IMG/VR virus record: IMGVR_UViG_3300007540_002278
Location: 1 to 22,170 of that record
Reading direction: 5' to 3' (one strand)
From: a virus
Length of the DNA: 22,170 bases
Below are positions 1,826-14,806 of the stretch, piece by piece. How positions within the stretch are numbered: the first letter of the stretch is position 1; every line of letters begins with the position of its first letter. The position numbers were made by a program, and so were the translations under genes. Below the pieces are notes generated by a model that did no database searches, was not told where the DNA came from, and saw only the letters and a program-made list of their open reading frames with translations.

Positions 1826-3391
1826 ATGGAATATAATTTACCAAATGAGTTGGTAAAAAACTTAGACTTCGGTGGTGAAGCTAAAAATAGAATTATCACC
1901 GGAGTTAATAAGTTAGCCCAAGCCGTTAAATCAACATTAGGTGCATCAGGAAAATGTGTTATCTATGAAGATGGGAGAGGCAAACCGGTCATAACAAAAG
2001 ACGGAGTAACCGTTGCAGAAAGCGTAGTCTTATATGACTCGGTAGAAAATATGGGTGCAACTCTAATCAAAGAAGCTGCCAGAAATACAGTTAAAGATGC
2101 TGGTGATGGTACAACAACTGCTACAGTATTAGCTGAAGCAATAATCAAGCAAGTAGACGCTGCGGTCGCAGAAGGTCTTACAATCAGAGAAATTAAAGAT
2201 GGGGTTAATGAAACACTAGAAGATGTTATTAAATATCTTAATAATATATCTATTGATGTTGAAGGTGATATGCTTAAATCTGTTAGTGCTATATCTTGTA
2301 ACAACGACTATAAGCTAGGAGCTATTATAGCTGAAGCTTATGATAAAGTTGGTAAAAACGGTGTAGTGCTTATGGAGGAGAGTGAATCAGAGGATACGTA
2401 TGTCGACGTAGTCGATGGTGTAAAAGTTGATTGTGGTTTAACATCTCCACATTTTGTTACTAATACAGAAAAACAAAATTGTGAACTTGATAACCCATTG
2501 GTGCTTATATGTTCATCTGAAATACCTAATGTACGTAAGATACAAACTATATTAGAATATGTCATTAAAAATAATAGAGCGTTACTTATAATAGCGCCAG
2601 TGGCACAACAAGTTAAAGCTGCACTACTTATGAATAAAGTAAAAGGTACTATTAAAGTTAATATCATTGATTTGCCAGGCTTTGGTCCTACTAAGAAAGA
2701 TGCTACAGAAGATTTAGCAATATTGACGGGGGCTACAGTAATAAATGAAGAGCTAGGCGATGATTTAGATTTAATGAAGCCTGATCATTTAGGTGAGGCT
2801 GACTTCTGCGTTACTGATGATAAAAATACTGTGTTAACTTTAGAAGGTATGACAGAAAATATCGAAGATAGAATAGATGATTTAAATAAACAATTAGCTA
2901 AAGAGCAAAATGCGTTTATAAAAAAGAAACTTGAAGATAGATTAGCTATGTTATCTGGTAGCGTTGGTATAATAAGAGTAGGTGCTAATTCTAAGGTTGA
3001 ATTAAAAGAGAAGAGAGATAGAGTTGAAGATGCCATATACGCAACTAAAGCTGCTTTGCAAGAAGGTATAGTTCCAGGTGGTGGCATTGCGTTGTTAAAC
3101 GCATCTCAAAAAATTTCGACCAGCAGAGCTGGTAAGGTGTTGCTTGATGCTTTATCTTCACCGTATGAAACTATTATTGATAATGCTGGTATGAAACTTA
3201 ATACTGGTATGAAAGAAGGTTATGGTTGTAATGTTATAACTAGTGAGTATGTTAAGATGATTGATGAAGGTATTATTGATCCTGTACTTGTGACTAAGTC
3301 TGCACTTAAGAATGCTGTAAGTGTAGCTTTAACTATTATGTCAGCAGATTGTGTAATATCAAATATCAGAATAGAAAATGCAGGCAGTTAA
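1826..3391 (+). CDS. groEL: Phage-encoded GroEL-type chaperonin (Hsp60)
   Basis: This is a 521-residue group I chaperonin that folds proteins in an ATP-driven ring chamber capped by GroES. It is nearly full length (E. coli GroEL has 548). The equatorial ATP-site motifs are intact: VITKDGVTVA near residues 55-64 (D59 matches E. coli D52), DAGDGTTTATV at 91-101 (D94 matches catalytic D87), and VEDAIYATKAA with D402 matching hydrolytic D398, followed by PGGG. The apical domain spans about 195-380 and has LTSPHF where E. coli has YLSPYF, so two of the three aromatic substrate contacts there are changed. By alignment to E. coli from memory, R197 becomes C203, E386 becomes K390, R452 becomes E448 and E461 becomes K457. 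About six residues are missing just after that ring-contact strand, and the C-terminal GGM tail is absent (it ends IENAGS). groES follows with a 14-nt overlap. The start has an AAATCAAATATTATGG leader. Likely substrates are virion proteins (inferred). Confidence 0.97.
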   Translation: MEYNLPNELVKNLDFGGEAKNRIITGVNKLAQAVKSTLGASGKCVIYEDGRGKPVITKDGVTVAESVVLYDSVENMGATLIKEAARNTVKDAGDGTTTATVLAEAIIKQVDAAVAEGLTIREIKDGVNETLEDVIKYLNNISIDVEGDMLKSVSAISCNNDYKLGAIIAEAYDKVGKNGVVLMEESESEDTYVDVVDGVKVDCGLTSPHFVTNTEKQNCELDNPLVLICSSEIPNVRKIQTILEYVIKNNRALLIIAPVAQQVKAALLMNKVKGTIKVNIIDLPGFGPTKKDATEDLAILTGATVINEELGDDLDLMKPDHLGEADFCVTDDKNTVLTLEGMTENIEDRIDDLNKQLAKEQNAFIKKKLEDRLAMLSGSVGIIRVGANSKVELKEKRDRVEDAIYATKAALQEGIVPGGGIALLNASQKISTSRAGKVLLDALSSPYETIIDNAGMKLNTGMKEGYGCNVITSEYVKMIDEGIIDPVLVTKSALKNAVSVALTIMSADCVISNIRIENAGS

Positions 3392-3635
3392 CGATTATGT
3401 AATAATAGATATAATAAAAGAGGGACCTAAAAAAGTAGGTGGCTTCATATTAACAGATGATACAGATGAAACAAACAGGTATAAAAAAGCTAATATCATT
3501 TCTGTCGGAGAACTGGTGGGAGTGGTTAAAACTGGTGATAGTATATATTATGATGCTATTGCTGGGCACGATATTGCTTATAACGATAATATGTACAGGG
3601 TAATACGTGCTAGAGATATAGTTATAGTAGAATAA
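3378..3635 (+). CDS. groES: Phage-encoded GroES-type co-chaperonin with short roof loop
   Basis: This 85-residue protein (E. coli GroES has 97) would form the heptameric lid of the GroEL chamber. It starts with NDYVIIDII, the counterpart of HDRVIVKR. The mobile loop covers about residues 14-33, with GG-FIL at 21-25 where E. coli has GG-IVL, the tripeptide that docks onto GroEL. The core strand IISVG aligns with VLAVG (G44 in both) and TGDSIYY with VGDIVIF. The segment between these is nine residues shorter, which removes most of the roof beta-hairpin, as in phage T4 gp31. The C-terminus DIVIVE matches DILAIVE. The ATG lies inside the end of groEL (14-nt overlap, +1 frame), so translation is probably coupled. 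The adjacent chaperonin gene supports the call strongly. Confidence 0.9.
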   Translation: MQAVNDYVIIDIIKEGPKKVGGFILTDDTDETNRYKKANIISVGELVGVVKTGDSIYYDAIAGHDIAYNDNMYRVIRARDIVIVE

Positions 3636-4462: not shown

Positions 4463-4903
4463 ATGAGATTAACTAGTCACGATTTACGTGATTTACAAAT
4501 CCTTAAGTATTACAGGCTCGTTAGAAAATGGGCCTGTAAGACTTACGGATTGACTGACGCGGATTTAGAACTTCTTATTTACTTAGATTGTAAAGGAAGA
4601 TTTACGCGTCAAGAATTTATCGACGGAACATATACCATGAGTTGGGATAAGAACCGTTGGGAGAAACTAAAGAGGAATGGTTGGATAGAAACGTGGAGAC
4701 ACAGAAACAGAACAACCATCAAATACTCTGTATTCAAAACCTCTTTTAAATGCTCACACTTAATTAGTAGAATATATCGAATATTATTAGGAGAGGAAGA
4801 TATACCTACTTCGGAAAAGAGTGTGTTTTTTACTAACCAATCATACACTGATAAGGTCATGAATAAGTCTATCGATGATATGATAAAAGATAATGAAAGA
4901 TGA
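4463..4903 (+). CDS. Winged-helix (MarR-like) DNA-binding protein
   Basis: This 146-residue protein has a winged-helix layout. Helix 1 is LKYYRLVRKWACKTYGL (about 14-30), helix 2 is DADLELLIYLDCKG (about 32-45), and FTRQEFID forms the next short helix. A basic recognition helix, DKNRWEKLKRNGWI, lies near residues 62-75. The wing, ETWRHRNRTTIKYSV, is rich in Arg and Thr. A C-terminal helix pair (SHLISRIYRILLG) would suit dimerisation. The pattern fits MarR-type regulators, but no ligand site can be identified. The stop overlaps the start of the holin-like gene (ATGA, 4900-4903), so the two are coupled. A role in timing late or lysis gene expression is inference; a structural or host-directed role is possible. 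Confidence 0.6.
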   Translation: MRLTSHDLRDLQILKYYRLVRKWACKTYGLTDADLELLIYLDCKGRFTRQEFIDGTYTMSWDKNRWEKLKRNGWIETWRHRNRTTIKYSVFKTSFKCSHLISRIYRILLGEEDIPTSEKSVFFTNQSYTDKVMNKSIDDMIKDNER

Positions 4904-5322
4904 TAAAAAATTTAGTAGGTGGCTTATTCGGCAAAATAGTAGATAATGCAGAAGGAATACTTGACAAAGTTATTACAACAGACAAAGAGCGTGATGAGGC
5001 AAAACTCGCGATTAAAAGGATATTACTTGAAGCCGAAAAAGAAGCTTTCGCGAAAGAAGTTGAAGACAGAAAAAGCGCTAGAGATATGTACAAAGACGAT
5101 GCAATTATTCAAAAGATACTTGCCACACTCTTCACGGTAGCATATTTTGCTTTAAGCTTTGTTATGTTTAGATTCTTTATGATGGGTGATATAGATTTAG
5201 GCGAATTTGAAATAAGCTTTATATCAACAATATTTGGTGCTATGAGTGCTAAGGTAAATACAGTTGTCGATTTCTTCTTTGGGGGATCGTCAAAAAAAAA
5301 TGAACAAATAAATAATAAATAA
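4900..5322 (+). CDS. Holin-like membrane protein (resembles the GTA/3TM phage holin family)
   Basis: This 140-residue protein begins with an amphipathic segment (MIKNLVGGLFGKIVDNAEGI). A long charged helix rich in Lys, Glu and Ala follows (about 24-65), containing DRKSARDMY. Two hydrophobic segments come next at about 70-92 (IIQKILATLFTVAYFALSFV) and 104-126 (FEISFISTIFGAMSAKVNTV, continuing VDFFFGG), then a polar Ser/Lys/Asn tail. This arrangement and the FFFG-S tail are typical of the phage and gene-transfer-agent three-TM holin family, which permeabilises the inner membrane at lysis; assignment is from memory of the family. Its ATG overlaps the upstream winged-helix stop (ATGA). No endolysin gene is visible nearby, which weakens a pure lysis-cassette reading. 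Confidence 0.6.
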   Translation: MIKNLVGGLFGKIVDNAEGILDKVITTDKERDEAKLAIKRILLEAEKEAFAKEVEDRKSARDMYKDDAIIQKILATLFTVAYFALSFVMFRFFMMGDIDLGEFEISFISTIFGAMSAKVNTVVDFFFGGSSKKNEQINNK

Positions 5323-6424: not shown

Positions 6425-6638
6425 TATCATCAGAAAAATAACTATAGGTAAGGATTATAAAAATGATTCAATGCACTACGCTGTAGATCAGGAGGTTTAT
6501 GGTGGGCATAAGATCTGTGATATAGTAGAAGAACAGGATAAGTATTGTATATATATTAGAAAGGGTGATGTAGTAATACCATGGAAAGATTTTAATAAAA
6601 ACATGGCTATATCAGTTGAGTATAATCTAGAATACTAA
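6414..6638 (+). CDS. Small phage protein of unknown function
   Basis: This 74-residue protein is predicted to be mostly beta, with strands NNIIRKITIG, MHYAVDQEVYG, HKICDIVEEQ, KYCIYIRKG, DVVIPWKDFN and AISVEYNLEY. The length and strand spacing suggest a small barrel or SH3-like fold, but no binding residues can be identified. The start lies within the end of the preceding gene. Its stop TAA shares one base with the start of the next gene (TAATG, 6636-6640), so three small genes are translated as a chain. No named family is recognised. Confidence 0.7.
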   Translation: MKNNIIRKITIGKDYKNDSMHYAVDQEVYGGHKICDIVEEQDKYCIYIRKGDVVIPWKDFNKNMAISVEYNLEY

Positions 6639-7225
6639 TGAAAGCTTATAAAGATTTTATAGTATCACCGATAGGTGAGAGATATAATAATTCTAAAAAA
6701 GTTGGAGAAAAAGAATTAATACTTAATACTGAAATATTTAATCATCAGTTTATAAATAGATTAGCATTAGTATTAGAAACTCCAATATTATTTGATACAC
6801 CTATTGAAAAAGAAGATGAGATAATATTACATCATAACGTTTTTAGAAGATGGCATGATGTTAAAGGTAGAGAAAAAAATAGTAGATCATACTGGAAAGA
6901 AGATAAATACTTTATATCTACAGATCAAATATTTCTTTATAAGAAAAAAGACTGGATGGCTATGCCAGGTTATAGTTTTGTTCAACCTATAGTATCAAGC
7001 AATAATTTAACTAGTGAGGCAGAAAAACCTTTAGTTGGCGTTATTAAATATAGTGATGGTACTTACAACAAAAATCAATTAGTTGGTTTTACACCTAATA
7101 GTGAATATGAGTTTATAATCGAAAACAAAAGATTATACAGGGTATTAAATAAATTTATTACAATTAAATATGAATATCAAGGAAACGAAAAAGAATATAA
7201 TCCAAGCTGGGCGCATAGCAGTTGA
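6638..7225 (+). CDS. Probable tandem GroES-like (double Cpn10-type) protein
   Basis: In this 195-residue protein, residues 5-102 follow the GroES strand order. KDFIVSP is the first strand. A loop of about 15 residues leads to KELILNT (like GGIVLTG). RLALVLETP stands for RGEVLAVGN, EKEDEIILHHNVF for VKVGDIVIFNDGY, and DKYFISTDQIFLYK for EEVLIMSESDILAIV. Residues 111-178 repeat the pattern: GYSFVQPIV, EKPLVGVIKYS, NSEYEFIIENKRLYRVLNKF and TIKYE. The end of this half resembles the phage's own GroES (LVGVVKTGDSIYYD and MYRVIRARDIVIVE). Two fused GroES domains are known in plant chloroplast Cpn20. The call rests on pattern matching without a search. The 3' end overlaps the next gene by 56 nt. A conserved Arg/His/Trp loop (NVFRRWHDVKGREKNSRSYW) inside domain 1 is longer than in GroES and is unexplained. 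Confidence 0.5.
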   Translation: MKAYKDFIVSPIGERYNNSKKVGEKELILNTEIFNHQFINRLALVLETPILFDTPIEKEDEIILHHNVFRRWHDVKGREKNSRSYWKEDKYFISTDQIFLYKKKDWMAMPGYSFVQPIVSSNNLTSEAEKPLVGVIKYSDGTYNKNQLVGFTPNSEYEFIIENKRLYRVLNKFITIKYEYQGNEKEYNPSWAHSS

Positions 7226-7442
7226 AGAGCTAATTAAAGTTGCTAAAGAAGCTATTGTTGATTCTGGCGATGATGTTTCTGCAGATAGATTAAAAAACGC
7301 CGCAGCTACTAAAAAGCTAGCTATATTCGATGCGTTTGAGATTTTAAACCGTATACAAGAAGAGGAGAACATGCTTGAAGGTAAAGTTGAAAATAAAAAA
7401 GAAGTTAAATTTAAAGGCTTCGCAGAAGGTAGATCAAAATGA
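7170..7442 (+). CDS. Candidate terminase small subunit
   Basis: This 90-residue, largely helical protein has helices at about 8-28 (NIIQAGRIAVEELIKVAKEA) and 36-66 (VSADRLKNAAATKKLAIFDA continuing FEILNRIQEEE), with a basic Gly-containing tail (KFKGFAEGRSK). It ends in an ATGA overlap with the large terminase (7439-7442). A short helical protein immediately before terL is the usual position and size of a TerS DNA-recognition subunit, but no helix-turn-helix can be seen with certainty. The start lies 56 nt inside the preceding gene. No later ATG would leave a sensible protein (the next Met is near residue 68), so this start is kept. Confidence 0.5.
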   Translation: MNIKETKKNIIQAGRIAVEELIKVAKEAIVDSGDDVSADRLKNAAATKKLAIFDAFEILNRIQEEENMLEGKVENKKEVKFKGFAEGRSK

Positions 7443-9676
7443 GTTACGAGCAAACATTATATGCAGTAATTGAACCAGTCAAACTTAATACATTAAAAAG
7501 ATTAAACAAATCTAAAAAATGGGAGTATGGTTATAATAAAGAAAACGATATTATCGTTATATCTAAGAATGGCACGGTAGGTGAAGTGCTTGATATACAG
7601 GGTTTAAAAGTAGCTTTACCTAAACAACCTAAAGAAATTTATAGTTGTAGTAAAACTAAGTCAAAACAAAAGTGGCGTAAGTTTGATCATAACCCACCTT
7701 TTAAAAGAATTAAAACTGTATTTGATTGGCAAGGATATCCAGATGACTTTAAACAAAGCCATTATGAATATATAGACGAAGAGTTTAGAAGAAGAGAAGA
7801 AGGTTTTTGGTTTATGAATAATGGTGAACCAACCTATATAACAGGTACACATTATATGTATTTACAATGGAGCAAGATTGATGTAGGTGCGCCAGACTAT
7901 AGAGAATCAAATAGATTATTTTTTATATTTTGGGAAGCTTGCAAGGCAGATAAAAGATGTTATGGGATGTGTTACTTAAAAAATAGACGTTCTGGTTTTT
8001 CATTTATGAGTTCAGCTGAAACCGTTAATTTAGCTACATTAGCTAGTGATAGTAGATTTGGGATACTATCTAAGACAGGTGCTGATGCAAAGAAAATGTT
8101 TACAGATAAAGTAGTACCTATTAGTATTAACTATCCATTTTTCTTTAAACCAATACAAGATGGTATGGACCGTCCAAAGTCTGAGCTAGCATATAGAGTA
8201 CCTGCAAAAAAGTTTACTCGTAAAAAAATACGAGAACGTGAGGAGATAGATGATATACAAGGACTTGATACAACTATTGACTGGAAAAATACAGGTGATA
8301 ATAGTTATGATGGTGAAAAACTAAACTTATTAGTTCACGATGAAAGTGGTAAGTGGGAAAGACCTGATAATATAAAAAATAACTGGAGAGTTACAAAAAC
8401 TTGTTTACGATTAGGTAGTAGAATAGTTGGTAAATGTATGATGGGTAGTACGTCTAATGCGTTAGAAAAAGGTGGTGATAATTTTAAAAACTTATACAAT
8501 AATTCAGATGTTACAAAACGAAATAGAAATGGACAGACTAAGTCAGGATTATATTCTTTGTTTATTCCTATGGAATGGAATTACGAAGGTTTCATCGACG
8601 AGTATGGAAGACCTGTGTTCAACGCTCCTAGAGAACAAACAGTTGATCCGCATGGCTTAGAAATAGAACACGGTGTTATAGACTATTGGAATAATGAAGT
8701 TGATGGATTAAGAGATGATCAAGACGCTTTAAATGAATTTTATCGCCAGTTTCCAAGAACTGAAGAGCACGCGTTTAGAGATGAGACAAAAAATAGTTTA
8801 TTTAATTTAGTTAAAATATACGAGCAAATAGATTATAACGAAGGTAACAGAAACTCATCTGTATTAACAACAGGTAATTTTCAATGGATTAATGGTAAAA
8901 AAGATACGCAAGTTGTTTTTAACCCAGATCCAAACGGTAGATTTAAAATTAGTTGGGTGCCAGGGATTAAATTACAAAATAACGTTATATTAAAAAATGG
9001 CGTAAGATATCCAGGTAATGAGCATATGGGTGCATTTGGTTGTGACTCATACGATATATCTGGAACAGTAGATAAACGAGGCTCAAAAGGTGCTTTGCAC
9101 GGATTAACAAAGTTTTCAATGGAAGATGCTCCAGTAAATACTTTTTTCCTTGAATACATAGCAAGACCACAAACGGCTGAAATATTTTTTGAAGATGTTT
9201 TAATGGCATTAGTATTTTACGGTATGCCAATACTTGCAGAGAATAATAAACCAAGATTACTATACTATTTACGTAGAAGAGGTTATAGAGGATTTAGTAT
9301 GAACAGACCTGATAAAATTTGGAATAAATTATCAGTTGCAGAAAAAGAAGTTGGTGGAATACCAAACTCTAGTGAAGATATAAAGCAAGCTCACGCAGCT
9401 GCTATTGAAATGTATATTAATGATCACGTTGGATTATTACAAGATGGTACTTATGGTACCACATACTTTAACGAAACATTAAATGATTGGTCTAAGTTTG
9501 ATATAAATAAAAGAACTAAACACGATGCTTCAATAAGTTCGGGTTTAGCTATAATGGCTTGTAATAGACATTTATATAGACCTAACCCAAATAAGAGTAA
9601 AGAAAAATTAAACTTAAGTATATCAAAATATAATAACTCTGGATTTTCATCTAGAATAATTAAAAGTAAAATATGA
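7439..9676 (+). CDS. terL: Terminase large subunit (DNA packaging motor)
   Basis: This 745-residue protein packages DNA into the prohead using an N-terminal ATPase and a C-terminal RNase H-like nuclease. GEPTYITGTHYMYLQW at about 130-145 precedes the ATPase core. The Walker A-like motif is KNRRSGFSF (about 181-189), the Arg/Gly/Ser variant found in many phage terminases. Walker B is LLVHDES (about 298-304) and a coupling-type motif is MMGSTS (about 338-343). The nuclease domain opens with GAFGCDSYDISG (D near residue 536) and its late acidic residue is probably in KHDASIS (about 694-700). The first 90 residues are an extra basic N-terminal region (SCSKTKSKQKWRKF). It is coupled at both ends by ATGA overlaps with the TerS candidate and the portal. 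The motif style recalls terminases of Cellulophaga and crAss-like phages. Confidence 0.93.
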   Translation: MSYEQTLYAVIEPVKLNTLKRLNKSKKWEYGYNKENDIIVISKNGTVGEVLDIQGLKVALPKQPKEIYSCSKTKSKQKWRKFDHNPPFKRIKTVFDWQGYPDDFKQSHYEYIDEEFRRREEGFWFMNNGEPTYITGTHYMYLQWSKIDVGAPDYRESNRLFFIFWEACKADKRCYGMCYLKNRRSGFSFMSSAETVNLATLASDSRFGILSKTGADAKKMFTDKVVPISINYPFFFKPIQDGMDRPKSELAYRVPAKKFTRKKIREREEIDDIQGLDTTIDWKNTGDNSYDGEKLNLLVHDESGKWERPDNIKNNWRVTKTCLRLGSRIVGKCMMGSTSNALEKGGDNFKNLYNNSDVTKRNRNGQTKSGLYSLFIPMEWNYEGFIDEYGRPVFNAPREQTVDPHGLEIEHGVIDYWNNEVDGLRDDQDALNEFYRQFPRTEEHAFRDETKNSLFNLVKIYEQIDYNEGNRNSSVLTTGNFQWINGKKDTQVVFNPDPNGRFKISWVPGIKLQNNVILKNGVRYPGNEHMGAFGCDSYDISGTVDKRGSKGALHGLTKFSMEDAPVNTFFLEYIARPQTAEIFFEDVLMALVFYGMPILAENNKPRLLYYLRRRGYRGFSMNRPDKIWNKLSVAEKEVGGIPNSSEDIKQAHAAAIEMYINDHVGLLQDGTYGTTYFNETLNDWSKFDINKRTKHDASISSGLAIMACNRHLYRPNPNKSKEKLNLSISKYNNSGFSSRIIKSKI

Positions 9677-12060
9677 GGTTAACACAACATTCTATAAATT
9701 TTCCATCACAAGCTGTTAGTGATTTAGAGAAGTTAAATAAAGAGTATGGCTTAAAGATAGCGAGAGCTATAAAACACGAGTGGTTTTCTGGTGCTACATC
9801 TAAGTATAATGTTTATAGAAATAATTTTCATAACTTAAGGCTATACGCAAGAGGTGAACAACCTATACAAAAATATAAAAATGAATTATCTATTAATGGT
9901 GATTTATCTTATCTTAATTTAGATTGGAAACCTGTTCCAATTATCCCTAAATTTGTTGATATCGTGGTTAACGGTATGGCTCAAAGAAACTATCAAATTA
10001 ATTGTTATTCACAAGATGAGTATGGCGTAAGTAAACGTACTGCATATATGGAATCATTATTAAGAGATATGAGAGCTAAGAACTTTGATAAAATGGTTCA
10101 ACAACAATATGATATAGACTTAAAAGAAAACGACCCTGAAACTTTACCAGATTCAGAAGAAGAATTAAAGCTGCATATGCAATTGAGTTACAAGCAAGGC
10201 GTGGAGTTAGCTGAAGAGCAAGCATTAAAAGTTTTATTAGAGGGAAGTGATTATGATTTAGTTAGAAGAAGATGTTTGTACGACTTAGCTGTATTAGGTA
10301 TTGGCGCTACAAAAACCACGTTTGATTGGGCTGATGGAGCTAAAGCTGAATACGTTGATCCAACTAATTTAGTGTATTCACATACTGAATCTCCTTATTT
10401 TGAGGATATATATTACGTAGGTGAAGTAAAAGACATACCTATTAATGAATTAGTTAAACAATTTCCAAAGTTATCCGAAGAAGATATTACAGAATTAGTA
10501 GATAAAAAATCTTACTCTACTAATAACGTCTCAAGTGATGATAAAAATAAAGTTAAAGTTCTGTACTTTAATTATAAAACACACATGAACAATGTATACA
10601 AACTTAAAAAGTTAGGTACAGGTGCGGAAAAGGTTATTGAAAAAGATGATACATTTAATCCTCCAGTGGAGAGTATGGATGGAAACTTTGAGAGATTAGA
10701 AAGAGTTGTTGAAGTGTTGTATGAAGGCGTTTATGTTGTGGGTGCGGATAAATTACTTACGTGGAAAATGTGTGATAACATGATGCGTACTGACTCTGAT
10801 TTCAACAGAGTAAAAATGAATTATCAAATAGTTGCGCCTAGAATGTATGAAGGTAGAATAGAAAGTTTAGTAGGTAGAATAACTAGCTTTGCTGATATGA
10901 TACAATTAACGCATTTAAAGCTACAACAAGTTATGGCGCGTATGGTGCCAGATGGCGTTTATCTTGACGCTGATGGTTTAGCTGAAATAGATTTAGGTAA
11001 CGGGACGAATTATAATCCACAAGAAGCTTTAAACATGTTCTTCCAAACTGGTAGTGTTATAGGTAGAAGTTTCACAGCTGATGGAGATGGCAACCCCGGT
11101 AAAATACCAATACAACAAATAAACAATGGCGTAAATGGAGGTAAGTTACAAAGTTTAATACAAACTTATAATTACTATTTGCAGATGATAAGAGATGTGA
11201 CCGGGTTAAATGAAGCAAGGGACGCTAGCACGCCAGATAGAAACGCTTTAGTTGGCGTACAAAAAATGGCCGCAGCTAATTCTAATACAGCTACTAGACA
11301 TGTTTTACAATCTATGTTATACATAACAGCTGAAGTTGCAGAATGTTTATCACTGCGCATAGCTGATATAATAGAATATTCACCAACAAAAGACGCTTTT
11401 ATTAGAGCGTTAGGTGCACACAACGTAGCAACATTAGATGAGATGAAGAACTTACATCTATATGATTTTGGTATATTTATAGAATTAATGCCAGATGATG
11501 AAGAAAAACAGATGTTAGAAAATAATATACAAGTTTCTTTACAACAAGGTAGTATTGACTTAGACGACGCAATAGACTTAAGATCTGTTCGTAATGTTAA
11601 ATTAGCCAATCAATTATTAAAAGTTAAAAGAAAAAAGAAACAAGAAAGAGAGCAGAAAATGCAGCAACAAAATATTCAAGCTCAATCTCAAGCTAATGCT
11701 CAAGCTCAACAAGCTGCTGCTCAAGCGGAGGTACAAAAGAAACAGGGTCTAATGCAGGCTGAAGTACAATTAGAACAGACTAAAAATCAATTAAAAACAC
11801 AATACTTACTTGCTGAAGTAGAAGCTAAAAAACAATTAATGGCTTATGAGTTTGAATTAGAATCTAAAATAGAGTCTGCAAAACAAAAAACGAACAATCA
11901 ACTTGAGGGAATGAGGGAAGATAGAAGAGATAATAGAGTTGATATGCAAGCGGCTCATCAAAAACAAATGGTAGATAGAAGAAGTGAGGGTAATTCACTT
12001 AAAAGGTTTGAGTCGTCAGGTAATGATAATATTACCGGGAATGCAGGATTGAACCTGTAG
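9673..12060 (+). CDS. Portal protein with long Gln/Ala-rich C-terminal helix
   Basis: This 795-residue protein would form the dodecameric DNA gateway at the capsid vertex. The N-terminal region includes LRLYARGEQP and WKPVPIIPKFVDIVVNGMAQ (about 85-105). The stem and clip region carries DVTGLNEARDAS then NALVGVQKMAAANSNTATRH (about 510-545), a pattern typical of podovirus-type portals. From about residue 652 to 770 it becomes a charged, Gln/Ala/Lys-rich coiled coil (KRKKKQEREQKMQQQ, QAQSQANAQAQQAAAQAE). In portals of this kind that forms a barrel reaching into the capsid. It ends in a Ser/Gly/Asn-rich tail. Gene order (terL, portal, scaffold, capsid) and size support the call. It starts in an ATGA overlap with terL. 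Confidence 0.9.
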   Translation: MRLTQHSINFPSQAVSDLEKLNKEYGLKIARAIKHEWFSGATSKYNVYRNNFHNLRLYARGEQPIQKYKNELSINGDLSYLNLDWKPVPIIPKFVDIVVNGMAQRNYQINCYSQDEYGVSKRTAYMESLLRDMRAKNFDKMVQQQYDIDLKENDPETLPDSEEELKLHMQLSYKQGVELAEEQALKVLLEGSDYDLVRRRCLYDLAVLGIGATKTTFDWADGAKAEYVDPTNLVYSHTESPYFEDIYYVGEVKDIPINELVKQFPKLSEEDITELVDKKSYSTNNVSSDDKNKVKVLYFNYKTHMNNVYKLKKLGTGAEKVIEKDDTFNPPVESMDGNFERLERVVEVLYEGVYVVGADKLLTWKMCDNMMRTDSDFNRVKMNYQIVAPRMYEGRIESLVGRITSFADMIQLTHLKLQQVMARMVPDGVYLDADGLAEIDLGNGTNYNPQEALNMFFQTGSVIGRSFTADGDGNPGKIPIQQINNGVNGGKLQSLIQTYNYYLQMIRDVTGLNEARDASTPDRNALVGVQKMAAANSNTATRHVLQSMLYITAEVAECLSLRIADIIEYSPTKDAFIRALGAHNVATLDEMKNLHLYDFGIFIELMPDDEEKQMLENNIQVSLQQGSIDLDDAIDLRSVRNVKLANQLLKVKRKKKQEREQKMQQQNIQAQSQANAQAQQAAAQAEVQKKQGLMQAEVQLEQTKNQLKTQYLLAEVEAKKQLMAYEFELESKIESAKQKTNNQLEGMREDRRDNRVDMQAAHQKQMVDRRSEGNSLKRFESSGNDNITGNAGLNL
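11677..11727 (+). repeat. Degenerate CAAGCT repeat coding the portal Gln/Ala tract
   Basis: Several CAAGCT and CTCAAGC units recur in phase (for example CAAGCTCAATCTCAAGCTAA, then CTCAAGCTCAACAAGCT), encoding QAQSQANAQAQQAAAQAE. The tract could expand or contract by slippage and so change the length of the portal barrel helix. Confidence 0.6.
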
Positions 12061-12094
12061 TCTTTTAATTTTTAATATTTTATAAAATTTTATT

Positions 12095-13258
12095 ATGGAA
12101 GAACTAAACGAAGAGGTTGTAGAAGAAACAACCGAACAACAAGAAGAGCAACCTTTAGAACAAGAGGTTGAGGATGTTATAGATGAAACTAAGTTTGATA
12201 GCGCTGGAGACGAAAGCGTTATTAAAATAGATTTAGATAACACGCCTAAACAAGAGCAAAACGTAGAAACACCAGTAGTTGAAGAGGAAGAGGCTGTAGA
12301 AGAAGAACAGCCTATTATGGAGGAGGTAACAGATGAAGAGCCTCAAACTATACAAGAAGCTGAAGAAGAGATAGTGGAAGCTGTAGCCGAAGCTGTTGAA
12401 ACTGGCGAACCACTACCTGAGAATATTCAAAAGGTAGTAGAGTTTATGAATGAAACTGGTGGTGACTTGCAAGACTACGTTAATTTAAATAGAGATTTAT
12501 CTAGTATGGATGATTCAGATGTATTAGATGAATATTATAGAACAACGAAATCTCATTTATCAGCAGAAGAAAGAAACTTTTTATTAGAAGATAGATTTGG
12601 TGTTAACGAAGAATCTGATGATGAAAGAGAAGTACGTAAAAAAAAGATAGCCCTTAAAGAGCAAGTTGCTGAGGCTAGAGCCTACTTAGACGGGCAGAAG
12701 TCTAAATATTATGAAGAAATTAAAGCTGGAGTTAAGTTAACTCCTGAGCAACAACATGCTATTAGTTTTTATCATAAGCACAACGAAGATCAAGAAGGTC
12801 AAAAGAAGTTATCCGAAGCTAGTAAGAAAACATTTTTAAATAAAACCAATAATCTTTTTAATGACAAATTCAAAGGTTTTGAATATGAAGTTGGGGATAA
12901 AAAATATAGGTATAATGTTAAAGATGTTAATAAAGTAAAGACGACACAAAGCGACATCAATAATTTTGTCAACAAGTTTGTTGGCGATGATAAAGCAACT
13001 ATTGATGATGCTGAAGGTTATCACAAATCTTTATTTACCGCTATGAATCCAGATGCTATTGCTAAGCATTTTTACGAGCAAGGCAAATCTGATGCAATTA
13101 AAGACAGAATAGCTAAAGATAAAAATATCAACTTAGAACCTAGAAAAACGCACGGCGAAGTTAATGTTGGCGGTGTACAATACAAGGTTGTAGGTAAATC
13201 TTCTGAAGACATTAGAAATAGATCTTTTAGAATTAAGAGTAACAAAAAGAAAAATTAA
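12095..13258 (+). CDS. Probable capsid scaffolding protein
   Basis: This 387-residue protein has an N-terminal 120 residues that are almost entirely acidic and Gln/Val/Pro-rich (EEVVEETTEQQEEQP, VEEEEAVEEEQPIMEE), giving a disordered, strongly negative arm. The middle is helical (KIALKEQVAEARAYLDGQKS, EEIKAGVKLTPEQQHAISFY). The C-terminal 30 residues are basic (RKTHGEVNVGGVQYKVVGKS, RNRSFRIKSNKKKN). An acidic or helical body with a basic C-terminal capsid-binding end, placed immediately before the major capsid gene, is the classic scaffold pattern (for example P22 gp8). No protease motif is visible, so it is unlikely to be a protease-scaffold fusion. Intergenic gaps are 34 nt upstream and 18 nt downstream. 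Confidence 0.75.
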   Translation: MEELNEEVVEETTEQQEEQPLEQEVEDVIDETKFDSAGDESVIKIDLDNTPKQEQNVETPVVEEEEAVEEEQPIMEEVTDEEPQTIQEAEEEIVEAVAEAVETGEPLPENIQKVVEFMNETGGDLQDYVNLNRDLSSMDDSDVLDEYYRTTKSHLSAEERNFLLEDRFGVNEESDDEREVRKKKIALKEQVAEARAYLDGQKSKYYEEIKAGVKLTPEQQHAISFYHKHNEDQEGQKKLSEASKKTFLNKTNNLFNDKFKGFEYEVGDKKYRYNVKDVNKVKTTQSDINNFVNKFVGDDKATIDDAEGYHKSLFTAMNPDAIAKHFYEQGKSDAIKDRIAKDKNINLEPRKTHGEVNVGGVQYKVVGKSSEDIRNRSFRIKSNKKKN

Positions 13259-13276
13259 CTTTAAAAATTTATAATT

Positions 13277-14806
13277 ATGGCAATTACAGGAGGGAATAGT
13301 TTGAATAGCGTTCCTGCTCATCAGCAACAAACGTTATCTACAAACTATATCGATTTTACTGCGTCAGGTACTACCTGGGCGCAACAATATCTGCCTGAAC
13401 TTATGGAAAAGGAAGCTGAGGTCTTTGGACCAAGAACAATATCAGGTTTCTTAGATAAGATTGGAGCAGAAGAATCTATGTCTTCAGATCAAGTTATTTG
13501 GTCGGAGCAAGGTAGATTACATTTATCTTACAAAGGTAGGGTATCAGATAATAACGGTGGCGCAACTATTGATTCAGTTGCATCTGCACAGATATTGATT
13601 CAATATGATATTGATGAAGCTGAAGGTGCTGACGCTGGTATATCTAATGGTTTATCAATTGTTAACCACGGTATTAGAGTAAACGATACTATTATCGTTG
13701 CTAATGCTACTGAGGTTAAAAAATGTTTTGTAACAAAAGTAGCAACAGATACAATAGATGTTGTACCTTATGGAGAAGCTCCTACGGTATTAACTGATTC
13801 TGCTGTTGCGAAATCATCAACGATACTAGTTTACGGTTCTGAATACAAAAAAGGTGCTTCTTACCATACTGGTGAGGGTGGTGCTGCTAGCGAATCAAGA
13901 ACTGCTAACGAACCTGCGTTCAAAACTTTTAACAACAAACCAATCATAATGAAAGATTACTACGAAGTATCAGGATCTGATACAGGTAGAATCGGTTGGA
14001 TCGAAGTTGCTTCTGAAGAAGGCAAAAGCGGATACTTATGGTATTTAAAAGCTGAGTCTGATACAAGAGCAAGATTCAATGATTATGTTGAAATGGCGAT
14101 GTTAGAAGCTGAAAAAGGTGGTGCTGGTACTGATATAATGGAATCAGCGGATGCGTTATATAATGCTACTGGTAATGCTACTGGTACTGAAGGTTTATTC
14201 GCAGCTATCGAATCAAGAGGTAATGTTACTACTGGTGTAACCGGTATTAACGCTGCTACTGATTTAGCTGAGTTCGACTCTATATTAGCTGAGTTTGACA
14301 AGCAAGGCGCTATTGAAGAATACATGATGTTTGTAAATAGACAAACTAGTTTAGCAATGGATGACATGTTAGCTTCAATGAATTCTTACGGAGCTGGAGG
14401 TACTTCTTATGGAGTATTTGACAACGACGAAGATATGGCATTAAACTTAGGTTTCTCAGGATTTAGAAGAGGTTCTTATGACTTCTACAAATCTGATTTC
14501 AGATACTTAAATGACAAAGCTACAAGAGGTGGTATTAATGATATAGCTGGCGCTAACGCGATCAGAGGTATGATGATACCAGCGGGTGTTTCTACAGTTT
14601 ATGACCAAACTATGGGTAAAAACTTAAAAAGACCTTTCTTGCATGTTAGATATAGAGCTTCTCAAACAGACAATAGAAAAATGAAAACTTGGACTACTGG
14701 TTCTGTCGGGGCAACTACATCAGCGTTAGACGCAATGCAACTACACTTCTTAACTGAAAGATGTTTAGTTGTTCAAGGTGCTAACAATTTCATGATGATG
14801 AAGTAA
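13277..14806 (+). CDS. Major capsid protein
   Basis: This 509-residue protein lies between scaffold and terminator in the standard place. The N-arm (to about 35) is followed by helical WAQQYLPELMEKEAEVFGPR, then FLDKIGAEESMSSDQVIWSE. A beta-rich insertion covers about 95-195 (NDTIIVANATEVKKCFVTKV, TDTIDVVPYG), likely a surface domain added to the HK97-type core. The long spine-type helix is GYLWYLKAESDTRARFNDYV continuing EMAMLEAEKGG (about 255-285). The C-terminal half contains the large A-domain, ending MQLHFLTERCLVVQGANNFM. The HK97 fold is inferred from layout, not from a search. Codon use is regular and the start lies in AATTATGG. A terminator follows directly, consistent with a highly expressed gene. 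Confidence 0.87.
   Translation: MAITGGNSLNSVPAHQQQTLSTNYIDFTASGTTWAQQYLPELMEKEAEVFGPRTISGFLDKIGAEESMSSDQVIWSEQGRLHLSYKGRVSDNNGGATIDSVASAQILIQYDIDEAEGADAGISNGLSIVNHGIRVNDTIIVANATEVKKCFVTKVATDTIDVVPYGEAPTVLTDSAVAKSSTILVYGSEYKKGASYHTGEGGAASESRTANEPAFKTFNNKPIIMKDYYEVSGSDTGRIGWIEVASEEGKSGYLWYLKAESDTRARFNDYVEMAMLEAEKGGAGTDIMESADALYNATGNATGTEGLFAAIESRGNVTTGVTGINAATDLAEFDSILAEFDKQGAIEEYMMFVNRQTSLAMDDMLASMNSYGAGGTSYGVFDNDEDMALNLGFSGFRRGSYDFYKSDFRYLNDKATRGGINDIAGANAIRGMMIPAGVSTVYDQTMGKNLKRPFLHVRYRASQTDNRKMKTWTTGSVGATTSALDAMQLHFLTERCLVVQGANNFMMMK
14162..14185 (+). repeat. 12-bp tandem duplication inside the capsid gene
   Basis: AATGCTACTGGT occurs twice in direct succession, coding NATG-NATG in a Gly/Asn/Thr loop of the capsid protein. 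It is in phase, so it lengthens the loop by four residues without a frameshift. Confidence 0.75.

Follow-up and report, generated by a model that had tools for sequence, protein, structure and literature searches.

An overlapping groEL/groES pair and a long, predicted two-domain co-chaperonin gene in a viral contig

Gene Organization of the Window

The window, i.e. the whole stretch of DNA analyzed here, is an IMG/VR viral contig of 22,170 bases in which the large genes are all located on the + strand. A basic 524-aa protein comes first, followed by groEL and groES, several unknown genes, the long co-chaperonin and then the terminase, the portal, the capsid and additional virion proteins (Table 1). 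The terminase-portal-capsid block (7439-14806) lies downstream of the chaperonin pair, so that the pair is indeed upstream of a morphogenesis module, as an earlier note on this DNA had described.

Table 1. Chaperonin genes and neighboring features of the window.
Feature	Position	Strand	Evidence
groEL, group I Cpn60, 521 aa	1826..3391	+	Pfam, PHROG, residue alignment, AF2/Foldseek
groES, single-domain Cpn10, 85 aa, mobile-loop-like GGFIL	3378..3635	+	Pfam Cpn10
Overlap of groEL end and groES start, 14 nt, conserved in the clade	3378..3391	+	
Long second co-chaperonin, 195 aa, two predicted Cpn10-like domains	6638..7225	+	PHROG, AF2, profiles
Long co-chaperonin, N-terminal half, Cpn10-like by predicted fold only; conserved mobile-loop-like ELILNT	6638..6955	+	
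Long co-chaperonin, C-terminal half, Cpn10	6956..7171	+	Profile-profile comparison of the wider family
Overlap of long co-chaperonin 3' end and next gene, 56 nt	7170..7225	+	Third-codon-position conservation
90-aa gene between long co-chaperonin and terminase; small-terminase candidate	7170..7442	+	Position only
Terminase large subunit (context)	7439..9676	+	
Portal protein (context)	9673..12060	+	
Virion structural protein, probable major capsid protein, possible client (context)	13277..14806	+	

The groEL/groES Pair

The groEL product matched the Pfam family Cpn60 along its entire length (E 1.4e-53) and the PHROG family chaperonin groEL (E 1.6e-133). The groES product exceeded the curated cut-off of Pfam Cpn10 (E 1e-10) and reached a profile probability of 97.5% against bacterial GroES; it combines the Cpn10 domain with a hydrophobic mobile loop. 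Both reading frames are intact.

The overlap of the two genes was found with exactly the same length in 30 of the 31 complete GroEL/GroES pairs of the group, which include the window itself and one near-identical contig and in which the GroEL identity goes down to 67%. In the remaining pair, the start was called upstream. Since the overlap is repeated so exactly, it is not due to chance. A translational coupling of groEL and groES is plausible. The gene order is opposite to that of the analyzed bacterial loci, where GroES directly precedes GroEL in 78 of 80 cases and follows it in one. Both the overlap and the reversed order had been pointed out in the earlier note.

Within the group of the window, GroEL and GroES are invariably followed by the long Cpn10, terminase, portal and capsid, in this order. 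Wherever a contig extends 5.4 kb or more to the upstream side of the long gene, it carries GroEL, located 1.8-5.6 kb ahead of that gene. The viral scan with GroEL yielded four relatives. groEL and groES are both under purifying selection, with a median dN/dS of 0.12 for GroEL and 0.10 for GroES (long protein 0.21, terminase 0.07).

Conserved Residues and Predicted Structure of the Viral GroEL

The residues D59, D94 and D402, named earlier as the ATPase acids of a full-length GroEL, correspond to D52, D87 and D398 of E. coli and show no variation among the 13 clade members and 80 bacteria compared. Together with these ATP-binding and catalytic positions, the GDGTTT motif was identified in all 13 clade members. 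The AF2 model has a complete GroEL fold (pLDDT 85) with a TM-score of up to 0.90 to solved GroEL structures in Foldseek, and the equatorial, intermediate and apical domains are all full length according to the Pfam match and to AF2/Foldseek. The overlapping groES gene would provide the GroES partner expected of a group I chaperonin.

On the apical surface, F204, L237 and N265 are retained. The client- and lid-site changes Y203 to H, L234 to Q and L259 to K are fixed in the clade, being found, like the changes R197 to C and E386 to K at the salt-bridge positions, in all or nearly all sampled members. In bacteria, these five positions are near-invariant. At the ring-ring interface, R452, S463 and V464 are substituted, E461 is variable and about six residues are missing, and the protein has no GGM tail. 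We infer that the lid and client specificity and the ring contacts of the phage GroEL have changed. Because ring-contact residues are altered or missing, the protein may form one ring, perhaps as in the phages OBP and AR9, or have an altered contact between rings. The five lineages sampled that have a long co-chaperonin all carry a replacement of Y203, while the phage GroELs sampled outside them retain it; this pattern may be confounded by the faster evolution of the former.

Ancestry of the Viral GroEL

Among the matches listed, the best bacterial GroEL was 42% identical to that of the window. In the trees, the clade of the window forms one group (SH-aLRT 100) on a long stem, and the sampled bacteria belong to another group together with several other phage GroELs. 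The Bacteroidota GroELs form one clade which excludes that of the window. GroEL thus belongs to a well-supported viral clade outside the sampled bacterial diversity, and the tree topology together with the low identity to bacteria indicates an old viral gene. The GroELs of elemo, ctfjg026, phi38:1 and Panino are long-branched, so that their placement in the tree is unsure.

As the sign of a recent capture, the earlier note had named a tree in which the two genes fall within a single bacterial genus, along with stop codons in relatives. The tree has no such placement, and the frames are open in all complete relatives. Recent host capture was ruled out by the tree and by the identity to bacteria of at most 42% among the matches listed. 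That the pair is a passenger, recently taken from the host and unused by the phage, is extremely improbable, as the dN/dS values near 0.1 also argue against it. In its favor, a deep sister relation between the viral clade and the Bacteroidota is compatible with the data (AU p 0.68), and since this relation is not rejected, the pair may ultimately stem from an ancestor among the Bacteroidota. The long viral retention of a complete pair suggested before is in agreement with the clade support, the selection values and the synteny with the capsid module in the IMG/VR relatives.

Comparison With Known Phage Chaperonins

The view of the earlier note that phages hold at most one half of the system has to be revised, as a phage-owned GroEL/GroES pair is not unprecedented. 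A search with the GroEL protein in 50,697 phage-collection records resulted in 270 matches, 225 of which cover at least 80%; these counts include a few host sequences, since bacterial contigs (AGRM01000005 and AFYI01000007, Salmonella) are filed as phage. Some phages are described to carry both GroEL and GroES (PMC7185714), and both are reported by the authors of Panino. Nishimura et al., 2017 (PMC5332604), described GroEL in 36 genomes of marine flavophages which are related to phi38:1, and cpn10 is listed as a core gene of the Pervagoviridae.

Elemovirus (68 isolate records) and Caudoviricetes sp. ctfjg026 are annotated with groEL followed by groES, others likewise, whereas the order in Immutovirus is groES then groEL. 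For virioplankton chaperonins, Marine and co-workers reportedly linked gene order to GroEL phylogeny in 2017. Elemovirus (Flavobacterium phages vB_FspP_elemo) and ctfjg026 resemble the window in the overlapping gene pair, in a related terminase (46% and 63%, respectively) and in a long Cpn10 beside it, but their GroEL is only about 37% identical. Their overlaps measure 1 nt (elemo) and, according to the annotation, 44 nt (ctfjg026), compared to 14 nt here, and the elemo pair is located on the strand opposite to the capsid module.

The marine flavophages of group 2 (PMC5332604) and Callevirus/Pervagoviridae (phi38:1, Calle) are marine Bacteroidota podoviruses with GroEL like the window. Callevirus differs in that its chaperonin genes belong to the replication module, where Cpn10 comes first and is separated from GroEL by one gene, and the accessible text on flavophages and Pervagoviridae gives no two-domain description for the long Cpn10. 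The phages EL, OBP and AR9 also encode GroEL-like proteins; these are far diverged (EL about 26% identity) and work without a co-chaperonin, in contrast to the window protein, which has the features of a normal group I GroEL with lids. The pair is another member of the known viral chaperonins, and the long co-chaperonin matters more.

The Long Second Co-chaperonin

The earlier account, confirmed in its observation of the pair, overlooked the long co-chaperonin gene beside the terminase, which is the less expected part of the locus. Its product matched the PHROG family co-chaperonin GroES (E 5.5e-14). For a profile comparison of the two halves, a family alignment of 46 sequences was used. The C-terminal half reached a Cpn10 probability of 95.5% (family aligned to the window protein) and 96.9% (aligned to phi46:3) against bacterial GroES, and only 12.6% was obtained for the N-terminal half. 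The C-terminal part also passes the Pfam Cpn10 cut-off in the homologues of phi46:3 and phi38:1. The long protein of the window itself stayed below the cut-off in the Pfam Cpn10 search, the profile comparison restricted to the window clade, which has too little diversity, gave no Cpn10 match, and a PDB sequence search with the long protein returned nothing meaningful. The wider family profiles identify the C-terminal half as Cpn10.

The AF2 model of the long protein is of medium confidence (pLDDT 76, pTM 0.67). Its best PDB match is the two-domain chain 7ekq_R (Cpn20; E 7.8e-4, 199 alignment columns, TM 0.52), and this alignment spans the full length of the protein; the next matches are 7ekq_Q and then single Cpn10s. 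The N-terminal domain is thus predicted to be Cpn10-like, and the protein likely has two Cpn10-like domains. Mobile-loop-like motifs were found in the N-terminal half of the window protein (ELILNT), ctfjg026 (GGIEFI) and elemo (NGLIL). A clear hydrophobic triplet of the mobile-loop type is lacking in the C-terminal domain of the window clade.

In the overlap with the next gene, 97% of the third codon positions are conserved compared to 74% elsewhere, and this region is under dual-coding constraint. The conserved C-terminal tail was considered as a binding motif and rejected, because the near-invariant third codon positions reveal the overlap with the start of the next gene.

Among the closest known counterparts are Cpn20/Cpn21 of chloroplasts and CPN20/CPN23 of Chlamydomonas, which include the best structural match (7ekq_R/Q) and share with the phage protein a size of about 20 kDa, two head-to-tail Cpn10-like domains (predicted in the phage) and the presence of a single-domain Cpn10 beside it. 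The phage protein differs in an identity of only about 12%, in the linkage of its gene to terminase and in the C-terminal loop without a clear hydrophobic triplet. Tandem-joined Cpn10 domains have been described as unique to chloroplasts (PMC5780408), and none were found for phage co-chaperonins in open-access literature text. A predicted two-domain second lid beside DNA-packaging genes would apparently be an arrangement known mainly from chloroplasts.

Distribution of the Two Lid Genes

The scan of IMG/VR with the long co-chaperonin resulted in 597 stretches, 80 of which were fetched, and a second scan with the ctfjg026 protein added 540. The stretches of aquatic phage contigs with a similar long protein therefore number well above 1,000, a sum of two scans which may share contigs. 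Homologues annotated as cpn10 or GroES are located in the terminase block of Elemovirus, Callevirus and Pachyviridae, and unannotated ones in that of ctfjg026 and Panino.

Cpn60, a single GroES and the long Cpn10 were found together in 19 genomes or long contigs. Both lids are present in the Pachyviridae phi46:3, phi19:3, phi13:2 and phi18:3 and in one fragment (a 72.8-kb contig), and a search for Cpn60 in these four genomes and the fragment found none. In Pachyviridae (Cellulophaga phages phi46:3, phi19:3 and phi13:2), the single-domain Cpn10 is encoded among replication genes and the long one beside the terminase. Gundel_1 has none of the three genes, and among the genomes examined there was no case of the long protein without a single GroES. 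The consistent co-occurrence, counted in a handful of lineages which are not independent samples, suggests that the two lids are used together.

Possible Function of the Chaperonin and Its Two Lids

The genes are probably best explained by a dedicated, phage-owned group I chaperonin with two lids, acting as a mixed ring or as alternative lids. The phage would be a podovirus of the Bacteroidota-phage kind with a complete chaperonin of its own, in which GroEL forms seven-membered, ATP-driven rings and the overlapping downstream groES gene supplies a matched lid, probably by coupled translation. The second lid gene, encoding two joined Cpn10-like domains, would belong to the terminase-portal operon and be expressed with the virion genes. 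In the mixed ring, three two-domain subunits and one single-domain subunit (3x2+1) would fill the seven positions, as proposed for chloroplast Cpn20/Cpn10 (PMC5780408). Alternatively, the two lids could be client-specific, the long one serving virion proteins. All function is predicted from the genes, and expression timing, coupling, ring composition and clients are given here on the same basis.

The medium-confidence model for the N-terminal half with its TM of 0.52 and low profile probability, the lack of a clear hydrophobic triplet in the C-terminal domain and the varying place and orientation of groEL in relatives speak against two lids of this kind. The long protein could instead be a structural or packaging protein reusing the Cpn10 fold, associated with terminase or portal, while the ordinary GroEL/GroES does all chaperonin work. 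We regard this as rather unlikely. It would fit the divergent N-terminal half, the fixed position of the gene in the terminase block of all relatives and its presence in Pachyviridae without a phage Cpn60; however, the mobile-loop-like motifs are kept across the lineages, the long protein was always found together with a single GroES, and phages that lack GroEL could rely on that of the host, as T4 does with gp31.

The phage co-chaperonins T4 gp31 and RB49 CocO are linked to capsid folding. Both are single-domain proteins which use the host GroEL, whereas the phage analyzed here has its own GroEL and a predicted two-domain second lid of about twice the length. The long protein may nevertheless work like gp31. 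In a division of this type, GroES would act with the phage GroEL and the long protein would divert the host GroEL to capsid proteins. The differences of the phage GroEL apical residues from the host type and the retention of the long protein in Pachyviridae without Cpn60 are in line with such a division, but we consider it improbable, since the single GroES, too, is retained by these phages although they have no GroEL of their own, and neither lid is therefore tied to the phage GroEL alone.

In the earlier note, virion proteins had been proposed as clients from the position of the pair. The position was confirmed; it is weak evidence on the clients, because relatives such as Elemovirus and Callevirus place groEL elsewhere, not always near the virion genes or in the same orientation. 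The place of the long gene in the terminase block is constant among relatives, and the proposal of virion proteins as clients is based on this place instead. Most likely, the second lid would be made with the virion genes and the chamber would serve virion proteins.

A more specific version is put forward tentatively and is more doubtful than the general one: a widespread marine phage lineage would have independently evolved, or captured, a chloroplast-like mixed 3+1 lid on a phage GroEL ring whose lid-binding and ring-contact surfaces have been rewritten, giving a chamber specialized for virion proteins, and its GroEL-less relatives would place the same mixed lid on the chamber of the host. 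If the long protein is a lid, it offers a natural test from the bacterial world of how lids with an even number of domains fit seven-fold rings, and of lids tuned to one client class, e.g. capsid proteins. The roles of the individual parts can be separated, because phages with two lids and no GroEL exist beside close relatives that have one.

Additional Genes Near the Chaperonin Genes

The 524-aa protein encoded just upstream of groEL (201-1775) is very basic and rich in Lys, Arg, Ala and Gly, without a family match. Related basic proteins (43-51% over part of the length) are encoded in the same position in several relatives. Between the chaperonin and the packaging genes, a 140-aa protein (4900-5322) has weak holin matches (PHROG holin, E 0.007; GTA_holin_3TM, E 0.08, below the cut-off), and its gene is a possible lysis gene.
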